Source of the DNA: Mesorhizobium loti
GTDB lineage: Bacteria > Pseudomonadota > Alphaproteobacteria > Rhizobiales > Rhizobiaceae
Direction: 5' to 3'
DNA: 64,000 nt
Assembly: GCA_002356515.1 (NCBI GenBank)
Contig: AP017605.1
Coordinates: forward strand, 6,867,020 to 6,931,019
A model generated the notes under the pieces. That model did not search any database. It was not told the origin of the DNA and worked only from the letters and a program-made list of their open reading frames with translations. Position numbers and translations under genes: made by a program. Each line of letters begins with the position of its first letter. Within the stretch, counting starts at the first letter, position 1. Of this stretch, positions 43,991 to 50,982 are shown piece by piece.

Positions 43991-45043
43991 GTGAACATCA
44001 CAAGACGACTTCTGGGGAAGGTGGCGCTCGGACTGGCCGGCGCAACCATGCTGATGCAGGTTCCGGCTTTTGCTGCGGACAAGCCGGCGCCGTTCGACAA
44101 ACCCGGCGTCAAGATCGCACTGGTGCGCTATCTCTCGACCGGCGACTTCTTCCAGGCCTATCTCTCGGGTGTCGAGGCGCAGTCGAAGGCGCTCGGCATT
44201 GACCTGCGCGTGCTCGACAGCCGCCAGGACGCAGCGCTCCAGTCCGACATGGTCGACCAGGCCATCGCGCTTGGCGTGCAGGGCATCATTATCCAGCACG
44301 GCCTGACGGAATCGATGAAGGACGCCGCCCAGCGCGCGGTCGACGCCGGCATCAAGGTGGTGGCGTTCGACGTCAATGTCGAAAACCCCAAGATCCCGCA
44401 GATCGAACAGTCGGATAAAGACCTGGCGCGCCTGGCGCTCGAGCAGGCGGTCAAGGACAATGGCGAGAGCTGGAACGCCGGCTACGTCTATGTCGCCGGC
44501 ATCGCGCCGCTCGACCGCCGCAACGAGACCTGGGTCGACGTGAAGAAAAAATATGCCGGCATCAAGGAAGTCGCGATGTTCGGCACGCTCGACAACCCGA
44601 TCGCCAACTCCGTCGCCAACCAGGCGCGTTCGGTGCTGTCGGCCCATCCCGATATTAAGGTGATGTTCGCCCCCTATGACGAGTTTGCCAAGGGCGTGAA
44701 GATCGCCGTCGACGAAGCCGGCCTGAACAAGGGCATCAAGATCTATTCGGCCGACATCTCGACCTCGGACATATCGGCGATGCGCGAGCCCGATAGCGCC
44801 TGGGCGGCGACCGCCGCGACCAACCCGGCCGTCGTCGGCCAGGTCTCGGTGCGCGCGCTGGCGCAACTGCTCGCCGGTGAAGACCCCGGCCACAACGTCA
44901 TCGTGCCGCCGACGCTGATCACCCAGAAGGAGCTGATCGACAAGGACATCAAGAACATGGAAGACCTGTCGGCCAAGCTGCCGCAGTTCGCCCATGCCGA
45001 TGTCGCCATGCCGGCCTGGATGCCGAACCCGAACGCGAAGTAA
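43991..45043 (+). CDS. Ribose-type ABC importer, periplasmic binding protein
   Basis: This binding protein of the ribose/galactose class has 350 residues. The signal peptide includes ITRRLLGKVALGLAGA, cleaved near AFAAD; the twin Arg is followed by a hydrophobic core, so Sec or Tat export are both possible. The mature part starts VKIALVRYLSTGDFFQAYLS and has the class motif VDQAIALGVQGIIIQHG. I chose GTG 43991, preceded by GGAGGAAAA. The unit ends at a clear terminator. Confidence 0.9.
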   Translation: MNITRRLLGKVALGLAGATMLMQVPAFAADKPAPFDKPGVKIALVRYLSTGDFFQAYLSGVEAQSKALGIDLRVLDSRQDAALQSDMVDQAIALGVQGIIIQHGLTESMKDAAQRAVDAGIKVVAFDVNVENPKIPQIEQSDKDLARLALEQAVKDNGESWNAGYVYVAGIAPLDRRNETWVDVKKKYAGIKEVAMFGTLDNPIANSVANQARSVLSAHPDIKVMFAPYDEFAKGVKIAVDEAGLNKGIKIYSADISTSDISAMREPDSAWAATAATNPAVVGQVSVRALAQLLAGEDPGHNVIVPPTLITQKELIDKDIKNMEDLSAKLPQFAHADVAMPAWMPNPNAK

Positions 45044-45063
45044 GGTCAGGCAGATCGAAAAGG

Positions 45064-45093
45064 AAAGAGCGGCTCTCGGGTCGCTCTTTTTGT
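45064..45093 (+). terminator. Rho-independent terminator after the ABC importer
   Basis: AAAGAGCG (45064-45071) pairs with CGCTCTTT (45082-45089), followed by a T-run (TTTTTG). It ends the rightward importer transcript just before the island-linked ddl remnant. Confidence 0.85.
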
Positions 45094-45116
45094 TTGTCCG
45101 CGATGAGCTCTCGCTC

Positions 45117-45419
45117 TCAGCCCGGTCGCCCGGGGCGCGCCAGCCCATGCGCCACCAGCCGGTCGATGACTTCCGCATAGCTGACGCCGCTTGCCGCCAT
45201 CGCCTTGGAATACATGCTGATGTCGGTAAAGCCGGGAATCGTGTTGATCTCGTTGACCAGGAACTGCATGTCCGGCATCAGGAAAAAGTCGACGCGCGCC
45301 ATGCCTTCGCAGCCGACCGCGCGGAAGGCCTTTGCCGCCAATGCGCCCATGGCATCCTCGACCTCCGGCGGCAGGTCCGCCGGCACGATCAAGGCCGCGC
45401 CATTCTTGTCGATGATCAT
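45117..45419 (-). pseudogene. ddl: C-terminal remnant of D-alanine--D-alanine ligase
   Basis: The 100-residue frame matches only the last third of a D-Ala-D-Ala ligase: GAALIVPADLP, GCEGMARVDFFL and VNEINTIPGFTDISMYSKAM, the last with metal-binding Glu and Asn residues. The N-terminal and central ATP-grasp parts are missing, and they are not found on the far side of the island at 48900. Homology stops where the low-GC island begins. The frame opens with an ATG overlapping the stop of the 806-residue gene (ATGA), so it could still be translated, but no ligase activity is expected. Confidence 0.8.
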
Positions 45420-47836
45420 TCCCGACCCGTTTCGCTTGCCGTCGAACCGACGTTGCCGTCCTCTCCATATTCGTGCTTACGCAGTTCGATACTTTCAGTT
45501 GCCCTCCTGCGTTCCTCCTCTGAGATCTGTTTGAGCGCCTTTATGAAACGGCGGCCAAAGTCCCGAACTCTAGGCCTGTCATCATTTTCCCAAGGCCTTA
45601 ACGCTTCGATCTTCTCCTCATAAGCTTCAGCAAAGCCGAATTCCCCCGTTACGACTCCTGTAGATTGCAGCACAATGCTGACTTCAGTAGTGAGGCTGCT
45701 CTCTTCTGGTATGGCGGCAATGATTTCCTTGCAAATATCGTATAGAAACTTCTCTCCTTCGTAGTTTCTGAGTATATAAACGACAAATCGCAAGTATTTC
45801 TCAGATTTCAATCCAATGAAGTCGTATAACTTGTTCGCAAAGTTTTGGGGAAATTCTGGAAAGATAATTTTCAGAAGCCTCGCGCCGCCGTAAAAGAAGC
45901 CGTCTTCGTTCGTTTCGAACCAACCTCTGACCTCGTCGACGACGAGATCGAGTGACCTCCCGAGCGGCCTTTGGAGGCTATGGAAGCTAAACGGGATCGC
46001 ACTGTAGGATCTGTTCCTCGCGCGGCCGCTGAGTGCCAGTCTGCGATTAAAGAATTTAAGCACCTCAGCAGGGTTGCGCTCAGCAAGCGGCGTCAATACG
46101 TCCTCGGCGTGATAATCAATATCATCTAAGTGCAACAACCCGTTCAGAACTATCTCGCGGCCGGCCGCGTCCAGATCTGCGAAGACATGTTGCGTTGATC
46201 CTCTGTACCAGACTTCGTTTATCCAGCTGGCGTCGCCCAGCGACGCTGCAACTTTGATGGAAGGTAAGGCAAATTTGGGAATTAAAGCCGGTTGAGTAAG
46301 GTAGTTCGATGCTGCTGCGCCAACAATAAGGTTGAGCCCGGTTAGGTCCTGCCGTCCGGCATAGATTTCAAACAGCGACTGCATGAGGCCTTCGTCAACA
46401 TCCTTGTTGAGATAGAAGAGCTTCGTGACTGCGAAGAGGTCGCGGCCCTGGGTTATGCGAGCGATCAAGAGCTGCCGCAAGTTCTCCTTCCCAGAACTGG
46501 TCCATACTCCCCGAAAGATGGGAACCTCAAACTTCAGAATATCTTCGTGGTTTTCACGCAGAAGCGTTAAAGCGAGATCGGGGCGATGTTCCGCGAAGAG
46601 CTGCAGGAACTCATAAAACTTCGGGAACGTCGCTAAATCGTTCGACTGAGTTTGCGCGAAGGCGATGATCCTCTGCCGCCACCTCTCCCATGTGTCGTTT
46701 GTGATGCTAAGTGCGTATTCGCGTGCCTTCCGAGACCTATATTCCTCAACTGCCTGAAAATCCGGACCTGCTTCCCTCCTGTCTTCCCATCGTTCGAAAA
46801 TGCCATTGAAACCCACCAGATCGCGGTAAATGCCATATTCGGTAAGAGTATTAAGCCTATCGCGTATCTTGAGGGCAGCAGTCTCAACAGCCTTGGTTGG
46901 GGCATGATAAAAGCGCCAGAACACCTCATGTTCAAGCTTCTGCACAATCTGAAACGGCTCATCTGGCAATCGCGCGTAAAGAAAGTCGAGCACATCGACG
47001 GTATCGGTCGATATCATTTGCACGACTTCCTCGCCGTAACCTTTGTGATCTGGCAGGCGCGTCGCCTCCATCATTGCGTTGATAACTGACTCCTTCACCG
47101 CAACGGCTGTTGCATCCGCATAAATTTGTTGCAGGAGTTTCAATGAACGGTGCCGTACATTAACGACGTCAGGAACAGCCGGAACAGCACCGCTTTTCCA
47201 GGTCACACTTCGATAGTCTGATGAGGTACCAGTGATGTTTGGCGAGAGTAGGTTGCCACAGGCTGCTAATACCGCCCTGCTAAATTGGTTCAGAGTTGTG
47301 GTGGTCTGATCCTCCAGCCATGCCACCACTTCCATCTGAGGGCTCGCCCCAAGCCCGACGCGATCGGAGGTTGTGAAGAATACATCGATGTTGAACTCAG
47401 CTAGGTGACCGAGGCATTCCAAAGATTTATTAGCAACCATCTCATCGTTGTAAGCAGAAAATCGCACGAATATCTCGGTTATTTCGCGAGTGCGGAAGTA
47501 TCTAATTCGTGAAAGCAGGTCGAGGGCCGCCGAAATTAGGCGTTCCTTTGTTTCGTATTGAGCAACCAAAGGGCTATCTTGGCTACGGATGATGTCCAAT
47601 GAGTCTAGCCGGTGTAAAAAGCTACCGATGGATTGAACAGCTAAATCAGGTACCCGGAAAGCGAAAACGTCAAATAAATCTATCTGCTCACGCAGGGCCG
47701 CGAAGCGCGCGTCGCTTTCTAAGACTTCGATTATTTTCCTAGCTTCTCTCTCGAGAGATTTGTCCGACGTCTTCGCCGGTGTGCGAGCCAGTTGCCTTAG
47801 AAGCTTCATCTTTGAGGACACAGCCAGAGAACTCAT
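45416..47836 (-). CDS. Large helical-repeat-like protein of the low-GC island
   Basis: I do not recognise this protein of 806 residues. It is rich in short amphipathic helices such as ERLISAALDLLSRIRYF, LNQFSRAVLAACGNLL, HRSLKLLQQIYADATAVAV and ENLRQLLIARITQGRDLF, spread over the whole length. This resembles HEAT/ARM-type scaffolds. There is no signal peptide, membrane segment or visible catalytic motif. The start overlaps the stop of the upstream nuclease-like gene by four bases, so the two form an operon. Base composition is far lower in GC than the surroundings (25 G+C in the 60 bases from 47401). A sensor or scaffold partner in a defence-like pair is my inference. Confidence 0.75.
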   Translation of the reverse strand: MSSLAVSSKMKLLRQLARTPAKTSDKSLEREARKIIEVLESDARFAALREQIDLFDVFAFRVPDLAVQSIGSFLHRLDSLDIIRSQDSPLVAQYETKERLISAALDLLSRIRYFRTREITEIFVRFSAYNDEMVANKSLECLGHLAEFNIDVFFTTSDRVGLGASPQMEVVAWLEDQTTTTLNQFSRAVLAACGNLLSPNITGTSSDYRSVTWKSGAVPAVPDVVNVRHRSLKLLQQIYADATAVAVKESVINAMMEATRLPDHKGYGEEVVQMISTDTVDVLDFLYARLPDEPFQIVQKLEHEVFWRFYHAPTKAVETAALKIRDRLNTLTEYGIYRDLVGFNGIFERWEDRREAGPDFQAVEEYRSRKAREYALSITNDTWERWRQRIIAFAQTQSNDLATFPKFYEFLQLFAEHRPDLALTLLRENHEDILKFEVPIFRGVWTSSGKENLRQLLIARITQGRDLFAVTKLFYLNKDVDEGLMQSLFEIYAGRQDLTGLNLIVGAAASNYLTQPALIPKFALPSIKVAASLGDASWINEVWYRGSTQHVFADLDAAGREIVLNGLLHLDDIDYHAEDVLTPLAERNPAEVLKFFNRRLALSGRARNRSYSAIPFSFHSLQRPLGRSLDLVVDEVRGWFETNEDGFFYGGARLLKIIFPEFPQNFANKLYDFIGLKSEKYLRFVVYILRNYEGEKFLYDICKEIIAAIPEESSLTTEVSIVLQSTGVVTGEFGFAEAYEEKIEALRPWENDDRPRVRDFGRRFIKALKQISEEERRRATESIELRKHEYGEDGNVGSTASETGRE

Positions 47837-48705
47837 GCGTCCAACTCCTGCAAAAGTTCGCCCATCAGGCTGTCCGCTGCTTGCAGGCAGACCTCTTCAA
47901 CGATTGGGAGATAATGATTGTCAGTTACCTTGATCAGCCCAGCCTGCTCGAGGCGCTGCGCATTTAAGACCACAATATCATCCTGATGCCCCAGCTTGGC
48001 AATCCTACCATGAACCTCCGCCTTCGTGGCGGGGTCGAACCACCAACTATAGCCGAGCAGACGGCGGCGAACCTCTTCATCTTCGTGACTAAGCCCATGC
48101 AACGCGTCGTGAAGCGCATTGATGTTAGCGGGAGCCGCTGGAGGCGGCTGGGCAGGAGGGGTTGGCGGAGTGCTCTGGTCGTATCGGCGGGACAGCAATT
48201 CATCAAAATCTGGGGAGAATTCCTGTCCATCCACAAAGCCCGGGATGAGGTTCCTCAGAGCTGTGTTTGGTAGCGCGAGAATTTCCCTCTCCAGATGACC
48301 TAAAGTCCATATCACCAGATCGATATTGGGGTACCGTTCTCGAAGCTTGTGGAGGAGTTCATTCGCTTTAGCAGGCGTCTCTCTTTGATTGTGAACAAAA
48401 ATCCATCGTGTCATCCGGTTTCCGAAATGGGCACGGGCTCCCTCGAAATCCCTTTCAATCTTGCCCTCGACCTCCCGAGCGGCAAACTGCTCAGGGGCGT
48501 TGCATTGGAATACGGTTAGGGTCGATCGTCGATAACCATCGCATTTGAAGTCGCCGTATCTTCCCTGAGGTTTCCAAGGTTCAAAATCTTCGCCCCAGAT
48601 CTCGATCGCCGCCGATGTGAAAAATCGTTCGAACTCCGCGCCCTTCTTTTCAAGCAAGGCGGATTTTATCAGCAAGGAAAGCAGCAATCTGTCCGAGCCC
48701 GACAT
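47833..48705 (-). CDS. Putative restriction-endonuclease-like protein of the island
   Basis: This protein of 290 residues has three parts. Residues 1-150 show an acidic residue Glu24 (GAEFERFF), then GRYGDFKCDGY (Asp52, Lys54, Asp56), then TVFQCNAPE (Gln67), followed by an alternating strand-helix pattern (RWIFVHNQRE, NIDLVIWTLGHLE). This looks like a diverged PD-(D/E)xK nuclease fold, of a kind I associate with N-terminal modules of bacterial defence proteins; the usual final Lys is replaced. Residues 179-194 are a Pro-rich linker. Residues 195-290 look like a helical or winged-helix domain (NAQRLEQAGLIKVTDNHYLP). The fold call is inference. The gene is low in GC and overlaps the helical-repeat gene. 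Confidence 0.7.
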   Translation of the reverse strand: MSGSDRLLLSLLIKSALLEKKGAEFERFFTSAAIEIWGEDFEPWKPQGRYGDFKCDGYRRSTLTVFQCNAPEQFAAREVEGKIERDFEGARAHFGNRMTRWIFVHNQRETPAKANELLHKLRERYPNIDLVIWTLGHLEREILALPNTALRNLIPGFVDGQEFSPDFDELLSRRYDQSTPPTPPAQPPPAAPANINALHDALHGLSHEDEEVRRRLLGYSWWFDPATKAEVHGRIAKLGHQDDIVVLNAQRLEQAGLIKVTDNHYLPIVEEVCLQAADSLMGELLQELDA

Positions 48706-48927
48706 TCGCTTAAAGCGTCCCCTCCGTCGATCCCAAGCAGGTGCATACGGCGCCGTTGGGCCAGTGAGGCTCTTATCGCGCGAATCATATCTGGTAAAGG
48801 ACCGGGGCTACGCGGCCCGGTTATCGCCGTTTTCCAGTAGAGCTGCGAAACGGCTTCCGTCCGGAAACGCGTCAACATAAGAGGCGGTCCATCGTTGCGA
48901 GAAACGATGAACCGCTCAAAGTTTACC

Positions 48928-50982
48928 TCAACGCAGCGCCGCCGCGATGTTGCCGCCGTCGACCGTCGTCACGTCGGCGGTGGTGCGTTCGGCCAGCGCA
49001 TGGTGCAGGAAGGCCTGCGCCACATCCTGTGCCGTCACTTCCTGGCCGAGCAGATTGCCGGACATGTATTCCTTCTCCGACACGCCGCGCGCGCCGGAGC
49101 GGCTGGCGATCATGGCATCGGTCAAAATGCCGGAACGGATGCGGTCGGCGTTGACGGCGTTCGAACGGATGCCATGGGCGCCGTAGTCGAGCGCGTATTG
49201 CCTGGACAGGAACAAAGTCGCCGCCTTCGGCACGCCGTAGGCGCCGAATTTCGGACCAGGATTAACCGCCTGCTTGGAGGTGTTGAACAGAAGCACACCG
49301 CCTGTGCCCTGTTCCAGCATGATGCGCACGGCGTTCTGCGCCACCGACTGGTGGGCGAAGAAATTGAGCTCGAAACTCTTGCGTAGCAGCGCGTCGTCGA
49401 GCTCGCCGATCCGGCCTTCCCAGGCCGCGCCCGCATTGGAGACCAGAATGTCGACGCCGCCGAAGACGGCCACCGCCTTGTCGAAGGCGGCCCGCACCTG
49501 GGCCGGGTCGGTGATGTCGGCTGCGACGCCGATAGAATTGTTGCCGGCCTTCTTGGCGGCATCGGCGGCCTTGTCGCCATCGAGATCGACGACGACGGCA
49601 TGGGCGCCATTGTCGGCGAACAGCTTTGCCGTCGCGGCCCCGATCGCGCCGGCGCCGCCGGTGATCAGCACCACTTGGCCGGTCAGCGGCTTCGGCTTGT
49701 TGGAGGCAAGCTTGGCCTGTTCCAGCGACCAGTATTCCAGCGGGAACAAATCGGCCTTGGACAGTGGGTGGAAACGGCCGACCGCCTCGGCGCCGCGCAC
49801 CGCCTCGATCCACATTTCGCCGACATCGGAGGCGATCCTGGCATCCTTCAGCGTGCGGCCATGGCCAAACATGCCGAGCCCCGGTACCAGCGTCAGCCGC
49901 GGCATCGGGTCGAGCATGGTGCGCTTGACGTCGTCGAGCGCGTCATTGGTCTCGAAATAGGCGCGATACTCCTTGGCGAAGGCGTCGACATGGCTCTTAA
50001 TGACGGCCTTGTAGTCGCCAACCTTGTCGCCATCGGGCGCAGGCACCGCCATCGGCCCGGTCTTGATGCGGATCGAAAGATCCGGCGTCGACACGCCGCG
50101 GCTGGCATAGTCGGCAATCGCAGCCGAATTGATGAAATCGACAATCGCGTCCGACGTGCGGAAATCAGAGATCATACGGTCGAAGCGGCCTTCACCACGC
50201 GCCACCGCGACGGCGCCGCGCAGCATCGGCGCAATGGACGCCGGCGTCGCGAGCCTTGCCGGCAGCGTCGCCTTTGCAGACTTCGGCTTGGCGTTTTTGG
50301 CGACGTACTCCTCGGCGACGTTCACATAGTGGATCATCCGGTCGTAGGCCTGTCTGGCATCGTCGCCGAAGGTGAAGATGCCGTGCTTGTCGAGGATCAG
50401 GCCTTCGACCGACGGATCGGCATCGAACACATCGGCCGCCGCCTTGGCGAGGTCGAAGCCCGGCATGATGTAGGGCACGTAACCCATCTTGGTGCCGAAC
50501 ACCGTTTTCACCAGCGGCTTTGAGTCTTCCTGGTCGACGATCGCCAGGATGGCGGTCGAATGGGTGTGGTCGACAAATTTGTGCGGCAGGAAGGCATGCA
50601 GCAGCGTCTCGACCGACGGGTTGGGCGAAGAGGGGTCGATGAGGTTCGCCCGCTGCAGCGCCACCATGTCCTCGTCGGCGAGCTTGTCCAGCGCGCGCGC
50701 CTTGAGCAGGGCGCCCATCTTGACCGCCGGCAGGCCTTGCGGCTCGATGACGGCCATGTCCCAGCCGCTGCCCTTGACGCACAACACATCCCATTCATCG
50801 CCGACAAGGTCGGTCGCCTTGATCTTGCAGGAGGTGTTGCCGCCGCCATGCAGGACCAGCTGCGGCACGCCGCCCAAGAGCCGCGTCGTGTAGACGCGCA
50901 GCGCGAGGTCGCGGCCGACGCCTTTCTTCGCATAGTCGGCGACGAGTCTCTCGGCTGCGTCGTCGTTCCACAAATTCTTCAT
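48928..50982 (-). CDS. Bifunctional class II aldolase / short-chain dehydrogenase, RhaD-like
   Basis: This is a fusion of 684 residues. Residues 1 to about 410 form a class II aldolase domain (LVLHGGGNTSCKIKATDL, FVDHTHSTAILAI, LILDKHGIFTFGDD). From about 430 there is an NAD-binding short-chain dehydrogenase domain (VLITGGAGAIGAATAKLF, with YGVPK as the Tyr-x3-Lys pair). This architecture is RhaD of rhizobia, which cleaves rhamnulose 1-phosphate to DHAP and lactaldehyde and oxidises the latter. No other rhamnose gene is visible here; the neighbour is a SorC regulator. It could instead act on 5-deoxyribulose or methylthioribulose 1-phosphate. I chose ATG 50982; the ribosome binding site is weak. 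Confidence 0.83.
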   Translation of the reverse strand: MKNLWNDDAAERLVADYAKKGVGRDLALRVYTTRLLGGVPQLVLHGGGNTSCKIKATDLVGDEWDVLCVKGSGWDMAVIEPQGLPAVKMGALLKARALDKLADEDMVALQRANLIDPSSPNPSVETLLHAFLPHKFVDHTHSTAILAIVDQEDSKPLVKTVFGTKMGYVPYIMPGFDLAKAAADVFDADPSVEGLILDKHGIFTFGDDARQAYDRMIHYVNVAEEYVAKNAKPKSAKATLPARLATPASIAPMLRGAVAVARGEGRFDRMISDFRTSDAIVDFINSAAIADYASRGVSTPDLSIRIKTGPMAVPAPDGDKVGDYKAVIKSHVDAFAKEYRAYFETNDALDDVKRTMLDPMPRLTLVPGLGMFGHGRTLKDARIASDVGEMWIEAVRGAEAVGRFHPLSKADLFPLEYWSLEQAKLASNKPKPLTGQVVLITGGAGAIGAATAKLFADNGAHAVVVDLDGDKAADAAKKAGNNSIGVAADITDPAQVRAAFDKAVAVFGGVDILVSNAGAAWEGRIGELDDALLRKSFELNFFAHQSVAQNAVRIMLEQGTGGVLLFNTSKQAVNPGPKFGAYGVPKAATLFLSRQYALDYGAHGIRSNAVNADRIRSGILTDAMIASRSGARGVSEKEYMSGNLLGQEVTAQDVAQAFLHHALAERTTADVTTVDGGNIAAALR

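Follow-up and report, generated by a model that had tools for sequence, protein, structure and literature searches.

What is the function of two overlapping genes that form an island of their own, low in G+C and without a recognised protein family? The pair lies in a 64,000-nucleotide stretch of Mesorhizobium loti DNA (assembly GCA_002356515.1, contig AP017605.1, positions 6,867,020 to 6,931,019 of the forward strand), here called the window, and coordinates count from its first base. A first-pass annotation, made from the letters alone, had described two leftward genes with a four-base overlap and had proposed a possible undescribed defence module of a nuclease-like effector and a large sensor or scaffold. 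Both open reading frames (ORFs) and their overlap were found as described.

45416..47836, minus strand: gene for an α-solenoid (HEAT/ARM-like) of 806 residues (ORF, model and structure comparison; 39 homologues listed besides itself)
47833..48705, minus strand: effector-adaptor gene of 290 residues, with a restriction endonuclease (REase) domain, a linker and a winged helix-turn-helix (wHTH) domain (ORF, homologues and AlphaFold2 model)

Our analysis supports the proposed module and extends it by effector exchange. We think it probable that the pair represents one form of a modular conflict system that does without an NTPase, which would act against phage, probably by abortive infection, and in which the wHTH domain would serve as the dock. 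The two-part system is apparently undescribed, and an arrangement of this kind, with exchangeable damaging enzymes, is characteristic of antiviral defence. No title or abstract opening found in searches of an open-access library, outside which most subscription papers lie, describes a wHTH–solenoid pair, and the available passages of PMC7159879 and PMC12839542 hold nothing bearing on one.

The AlphaFold2 model of the 290-residue protein (mean predicted local distance difference test score, pLDDT, 85.8; predicted template modelling score 0.56) divides the chain into the following parts.

48256..48705, minus strand: predicted PD-(D/E)XK-type nuclease domain, residues 1–150 (model and conserved residues)
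48124..48174, minus strand: low-confidence Pro-rich linker, residues 178–194 (pLDDT below 50)
47839..48123, minus strand: winged-helix domain, residues 195–289, common to partners with different effectors and proposed as the dock (model and profile matches)

A restriction-endonuclease-like fold, a Pro-rich linker and a winged helix had all been suggested in the first pass, and the model agrees with each. Foldseek gave no match below E = 0.001 and mixed both domains, and a second structure comparison with VIA was needed. The core α-β fold of the PD-(D/E)XK superfamily is present in the model, and the front half of the protein is predicted to be a nuclease domain of this type with putative DNase activity. 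Besides the protein itself, 42 homologues were listed, of which one (P0043) matched at the N terminus only. In an alignment of 31 rows D52, K54, D56, Q67 and K82 are invariant and E26 is present in 30; Q67 occupies the position of the usual Glu or Asp, and the active-site motif is assigned tentatively. The motifs GDFKCDG (51–57) and FQCNAPE (66–72) had been placed correctly. Glu24, previously singled out as a key residue, is not conserved (A 12, E 8, G 7 and D 4 of 31 rows); the glutamate kept in that helix is instead Glu26. P0043, a database protein of 179 residues, joins the N terminus of the small protein to sequence matching Pfam PF13276, presumably a transposase-type domain, which suggests an insertion into a relative of the small gene.

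The 806-residue partner, earlier described as all-helical, is predicted to be an α-solenoid. Foldseek and VIA matched its model to generic solenoids (CAND1, spliceosomal solenoids, importins and designed armadillo proteins), which identifies the fold class only. Neither window protein had a match above cut-off in Pfam, PADLOC or NCBIfam, or a meaningful one in the PDB by sequence and profile; none of the 5027 PADLOC models (2023) matched either at E up to 1, and a sequence search of the PDB with the solenoid profile gave no chain at E up to 1. A Pfam scan of the window pair and of 14 further partner or fusion proteins gave no NTPase family.

A search for the pair in other genomes had been suggested with the first-pass annotation. 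Every one of the 24 distinct loci in which the solenoid gene is free-standing has a same-strand gene directly upstream, at a gap of −26 to +5 nucleotides in our own ORF calls. This count, and that of 18 fusion loci below, leaves out L019 (cut by a contig end), L026 (broken frames), L036 (a STAND fusion), L047 and L048 (partial), L041 (the window) and L040, which has lengths and score equal to those of L003 and was taken as the same. At L007 the solenoid ORF was called too long; its start was set by the profile match and the upstream gene was assigned by hand. In the reverse test, among 397 genomes of the order, only two contained the full-length small protein, that of the window and G114, and these are the two that have a free-standing solenoid gene.

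The front half of the upstream gene differs between loci: it is of REase type in 4, HNH in 1, PIN in 15, SIR2 in 3 and of no assigned class in 1 (L050). Pfam matches above cut-off were obtained with HNH_2 (1 of 1), PIN_12 (7 of 7 tested) and SIR2_2 (3 of 3). The remaining eight PIN rows rest on an alignment in which E51, D156 and D179 are invariant (15 rows) and D12 is present in 14 of 15; a PIN sequence gave only chance-level matches in the PDB. The SIR2 domain of L012 matches PDB chains of KomC (E = 3e-14), of DSR2 (E = 2e-11) and of ThsA, and its TTNYD and HGD motifs align in the two alignments shown.

In 23 of the 24 loci the upstream gene ends in a recognisably homologous wHTH domain. When a profile built from the last 115 residues of 14 PIN partners was run against 3303 ORFs, it retrieved the HNH partner (E = 8e-16), all four REase partners (3e-14 to 5e-12) and two of the three SIR2 partners (1.5e-11 and 2e-5), with the best non-partner at E = 2. 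A REase-partner profile retrieved the HNH partner (2.6e-39) together with all 14 PIN and all three SIR2 partners (weakest E = 0.0018; best non-partner 0.19). Since both the PIN-trained and the REase-trained profile rank the partners of other classes that they retrieve above every non-partner ORF, the last ~100 residues are, by sequence comparison, homologous across effector types. The gene at L050:3888-4694 represents another type of partner, whose match to the wHTH profile is weak (E = 0.048) and which has no Pfam match.

A fifth enzyme occurs fused to the solenoid, with no wHTH gene found beside it. In 20 proteins (18 loci and two database proteins) a RelA/SpoT domain precedes the solenoid in the same chain; 19 are seen in full, and L020, which is cut at a contig end, owes its Rel label to 75 residues. 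The RelA_SpoT family of Pfam matched both fusions scanned, the domain is precomputed in P0058 and P0082, and L017 has PDB matches to GTP pyrophosphokinases (E = 2e-7). The motif DLAGxR is found in 18 of the 20 fusions and HAW in 19. Upstream DNA is visible at 16 of the 18 loci (L020 and L031 start at a contig end), and at 14 of these no same-strand ORF of at least 150 residues lies close upstream. At the other two, L023 and L024, an upstream ORF lies 93 and 72 nucleotides away and has no match to the wHTH profiles (best E = 2.1). It is mainly because no adaptor gene is seen where effector and solenoid form one chain that we read the wHTH as a dock, and these fusions suggest where it would dock. 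Two unusual fusions were also seen. The protein at L034:4891-8823, on a Rhizobium rhizogenes plasmid, is a Rel–solenoid fusion with an extra C-terminal poly-γ-glutamate hydrolase domain (residues 1114–1286, E = 8.6e-45), and a SIR2-family gene lies downstream of it, beyond a transposase. The protein at L036:3037-6657, on an Aulosira plasmid, joins a STAND-like NTPase region to the solenoid family (profile E = 8.8e-45, residues 431–1204); its Pfam NTPase and EAD10 matches are below cut-off. Used as a query, it also matched archaeal records in the NTPase part, and one of these matches extends into the repeat part.

The history of the exchange was traced on a tree of 44 solenoid cores, built by a quick method with support from the Shimodaira–Hasegawa-like approximate likelihood ratio test (SH-aLRT) only. 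Effector labels are clustered on it, with six changes against a minimum possible of five, so exchange is, on this tree, real but not frequent. The nearest row to the window solenoid is L004, which has an HNH partner. One branch (SH-aLRT 96) unites L004, L002 (REase) and the Rel fusion P0058, with solenoids that are 61–63% identical. The DNA of L002 and L004 can be aligned from inside the wHTH onwards and not before, homology starting 83 codons before the stop of the partner gene. P0058 itself is a mosaic. It resembles the Rel clade up to residue 240 (mean 30–51% identity per block) and L002 and L004 from residue 401 on (50–83% per block). Over residues 241–400, approximately solenoid residues 34–207, identity is 18–29% to L002 and L004, and to the Rel clade 22–30% on average and 32–42% for the best of 19 rows, a measure that favours the larger set. 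Sequence comparison thus places a break near solenoid residue 200; that residues 1–200 travelled with Rel is less sure.

47237..47836, minus strand: solenoid residues 1–200, the proposed effector platform (here P0058 is unlike the otherwise close L002 and L004)

From the computed gene pairing, common wHTH domain, effector exchange, predicted folds and conserved catalytic-type residues, we infer docking by the wHTH, inhibition, sensing and defence by abortive infection, in a mechanism modelled on Lamassu/ABC-3C, DSR2 and CapRel. The 806-residue solenoid would be the constant chassis, which keeps the effector in check and detects invasion, most likely through binding to a protein or nucleic acid of the invader. 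The 290-residue protein would carry the killing enzyme, here a putative PD-(D/E)XK-type DNase, on a flexible linker before the winged helix, and the latter would dock it on the N-terminal part of the solenoid. Infection would change the shape of the solenoid and release or oligomerise the nuclease, and DNA would be degraded. In other bacteria the same chassis and dock would carry an HNH nuclease, a PIN RNase or a SIR2 NADase; a RelA/SpoT synthetase fused straight to the solenoid would need no dock. A bolder reading is that this is an unnamed, NTPase-free immune chassis, in which the solenoid senses the invader and allosterically fires at least five unrelated effector classes, with the wHTH as universal plug and solenoid residues ~1–200 as a socket exchanged along with the effector. 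We offer it tentatively, because the joint transfer of residues 1–200 with Rel is the less certain part of the evidence.

CBASS, Avs and Lamassu/ABC-3C are defence systems that trade effectors freely. If our reading is right, it adds to such systems (Lamassu/ABC-3C in the available passages of PMC10586767) a chassis without an NTP-driven machine, and it supplies a family and motifs for some 80 mostly unnamed proteins.

The closest comparison is with ABC-3C/Lamassu (LmuABC), which has a homologous N-terminal REase-type effector domain (27–41% identity over 29–49% of the small protein). Matches of the small protein to annotated ABC-3C proteins reached E = 1e-19, and E26, D52, K54, D56, Q67, K82 and N106 are common to it and three of them. 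In the part of the Lamassu/ABC-3C literature available (PMC10586767), the effector N terminus varies (REase, HNH, SIR2 and others), the C terminus is thought to dock and the sensor is separate, and this logic of interchangeable effector, docking end and separate sensor would be shared by the window pair. The differences lie in the components. The window pair has no ABC or SMC ATPase, the partner of the effector being a solenoid; it has no middle component, whereas MC6 is found in L098 and one is annotated in L037–L039; and it has no ABC-3C C-terminal domain, the small protein being without a Pfam match at E up to 1, whereas CTD10 (PF20275) is present on L098. The proposed dock is here a wHTH, and an α-solenoid takes the position of the sensor. 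Because ATPase, middle component and C-terminal domain were each tested for and not found, the window system is, by this comparison, not a member of ABC-3C/Lamassu.

Six further matches to the small protein in the 397 genomes of the order consist of the nuclease domain alone, and no solenoid was present in the 3.2–7 kb fetched around them. Three large partner genes at such loci, scanned with Pfam, encode DUF2326 proteins; because L098 also has MC6 and CTD10, its profile matches identify that locus as an ABC-3C system. Our own Walker-A pattern had no match in the six ABC-3C-like loci; an ATPase is assigned there from the Pfam family DUF2326, matched by the three genes scanned. Genome G114 has the REase domain type twice (L080 and L099, contigs C26 and C74), in one copy together with a solenoid and in the other next to a DUF2326 protein, the arrangement of ABC-3C loci. 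The same domain on an SMC-type ATPase chassis and on a solenoid, even within this one genome, would allow a direct test of how effectors are silenced and fired.

Other systems are more distant. In DSR2 a solenoid binds the phage tail tube protein and turns on a SIR2 NADase, according to the available parts of PMC11263360 and PMC11087589. The likeness lies in an effector linked to a helical solenoid, and the L012 SIR2 domain matches DSR2 chains. However, DSR2 is a single chain with one effector type, whereas the SIR2 partners of L012, L016 and L021 are encoded separately from the solenoid, the window effector is an REase in a separate gene, and the solenoid profile has no PDB sequence match. 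In CapRel, as far as the available text of PMC9712102 goes, a C-terminal domain inhibits a Rel-type toxin and senses the phage capsid protein; a RelA/SpoT-type enzyme thus stands in front of a sensor-type region, as in the 1000-residue fusions here. Unlike CapRel, the region behind the enzyme is a long solenoid, and the effector can be exchanged for unrelated enzymes. STAND/Avs systems differ from the window pair and the 14 other proteins by the NTPase family for which Pfam gave no match.

Searches with the solenoid profile located 25 loci in genome contigs and five in viral contigs, and one with the window protein located five places on plasmids, of which four copies were examined. By record title the hosts include Pseudomonadota, Myxococcota, Nitrospirota, Acidobacteriota and Cyanobacteriota. 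Among 61 genomes searched, 36 of the others from the same genus, only the window's own had the solenoid gene. In overlapping draws that each count this genome, it was matched in 9 of 397 (order; two matches partial), 2 of 398 (phylum) and 4 of 385 (class). In 22 of the 24 other loci where it was measured, fusions among them, the system is lower in G+C than its flank. A copy of the solenoid gene in Sinorhizobium meliloti 4H41 (L026:9887-11502) is broken into several frames.

Phage genes lie near the system in four of five IMG/VR loci: a terminase (L027), an integrase (L028), a minor tail protein (L029) and a phage DNA polymerase (L030). PHROGs was searched with 27 of the 33 neighbour ORFs on the five contigs, and with ten of these again singly; five of the ten had no match, among them every downstream gene tested at L028 (three) and the single gene tested at L031. 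Neither window protein matched a phage record, and a Rel fusion query matched one Vibrio phage record in the Rel part only. Scans of viral contigs with the small protein or its alignment gave no relative, and plasmid searches with three distant members gave no new confirmable solenoid record. PADLOC and Pfam scans of 129 of the 153 neighbour ORFs around 21 non-viral loci (naive calls, some short or doubtful ORFs omitted) yielded two UvrD-like helicases.

Several results weigh against the modular defence system proposed here. The family is rare, as the genome counts above show. Co-occurrence with defence islands, which had been suggested as a check, was not seen: the neighbours of the 21 loci have no visible PADLOC enrichment (at most two of 129 members per family among the 25 of 77 listed, with no control set). 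The common wHTH is least clear for SIR2 and L050. The PIN-partner profile misses the SIR2 partner L012 and matches L050 weakly (E = 0.048). With a profile of the three SIR2 partners, E is 2e-7 to 0.09 for the REase and HNH partners and for seven of the PIN partners, against 0.37 for the best non-partner; nine of the other 21 partners are missed or barely reached. Of these nine, L032 and L007 have E of only 1.4 and 2.3, and L006, L014, L015, L027, L030, L033 and L050 are unmatched. Only 10 of the 20 fusions fit our pattern for the Tyr/His motif of Rel enzymes, and P0058 is a single 3.5-kb metagenome contig that may be an assembly chimera.

Some copies lie in mobile settings, which would suit a toxin–antitoxin or addiction module that benefits the carrying mobile element, with the effector as toxin and the solenoid as a large antitoxin or chaperone. 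The tight bicistronic layout fits this too, as does the exchange of toxic-type enzymes of kinds also common in toxin–antitoxin systems. We nevertheless consider it unlikely. A conserved partner of 800 residues far exceeds the usual antitoxin, and no mobility gene was found among the five genes scanned that adjoin the window pair; the explanation also overlaps with defence and hence is not exclusive. Much less probable is a restriction-like cutter that would leave the host alive: the solenoid would bind either DNA or a modification and guide the nuclease to foreign DNA. DNA is not the expected substrate of SIR2, PIN and RelA/SpoT partners, and the same five adjoining genes, the only ones scanned, include no methyltransferase, in contrast to a type II restriction-modification system with its cognate enzyme; the REase and HNH partners, and the frequent binding of DNA by wHTH folds, are what would favour it. 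That a wHTH transcription regulator stands beside an unrelated structural gene, its enzyme domains sensory or decayed, is hardly credible, given the invariant catalytic-type residues in 31 REase and 15 PIN rows, the SIR2 motifs kept in L012 (the one examined), the DLAGxR and HAW motifs kept in the Rel fusions, and the lack of any wHTH gene found beside those fusions.

We return from the modular defence system to its setting in the window.

45415..48816, no strand: island (homology to eight ddl-bearing sites ends at 45413/45414 and restarts at 48817–48820 in the longest-matching sites)
45117..45419, minus strand: 3′ remnant of a D-Ala-D-Ala ligase gene, 100 codons, truncated by the island (family match and same-genus site comparison)
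48884..48915, minus strand: terminator-like hairpin after the upstream dehydrogenase gene (consensus match; four such sites against 4.6 expected from shuffles)

The island holds the two genes only, with nothing between them. The low G+C noted in the first pass is confirmed: the pair has 51.5% against 64.2% in the rest of the window, and the minimum among 541 overlapping stretches of the same size elsewhere in the window is 61.0%. The first-pass annotation had also described a disrupted housekeeping gene. A D-Ala-D-Ala ligase gene is indeed truncated; it is an accessory copy and not the sole one, because two other Ddl-like places exist in the same genome (the nearer a 362-residue open frame, 60% identical over the ddl fragment) and four of 12 same-genus sites fetched by coordinates have no ddl match. 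At the other eight a long Ddl ORF (355–438 residues as called) lies at the same place, and in all of them the window match ends at base 45413 or 45414. Because it restarts at 48817–48820 in the longest-matching sites (48928–48932 in others), a block of ~3.4 kb has, as judged by these alignments, taken the place of the first ~260 codons of an accessory ddl, and the site is variable. On one side the island is flanked by a sugar ABC transporter operon, which holds the sole ABC ATPase among the adjoining genes scanned; an aldolase/dehydrogenase gene and a sugar-binding regulator lie on the other. The gap between the sugar transporter and dehydrogenase genes (window 45043-48930) is variable within the genus, with further ORFs present at several sites.

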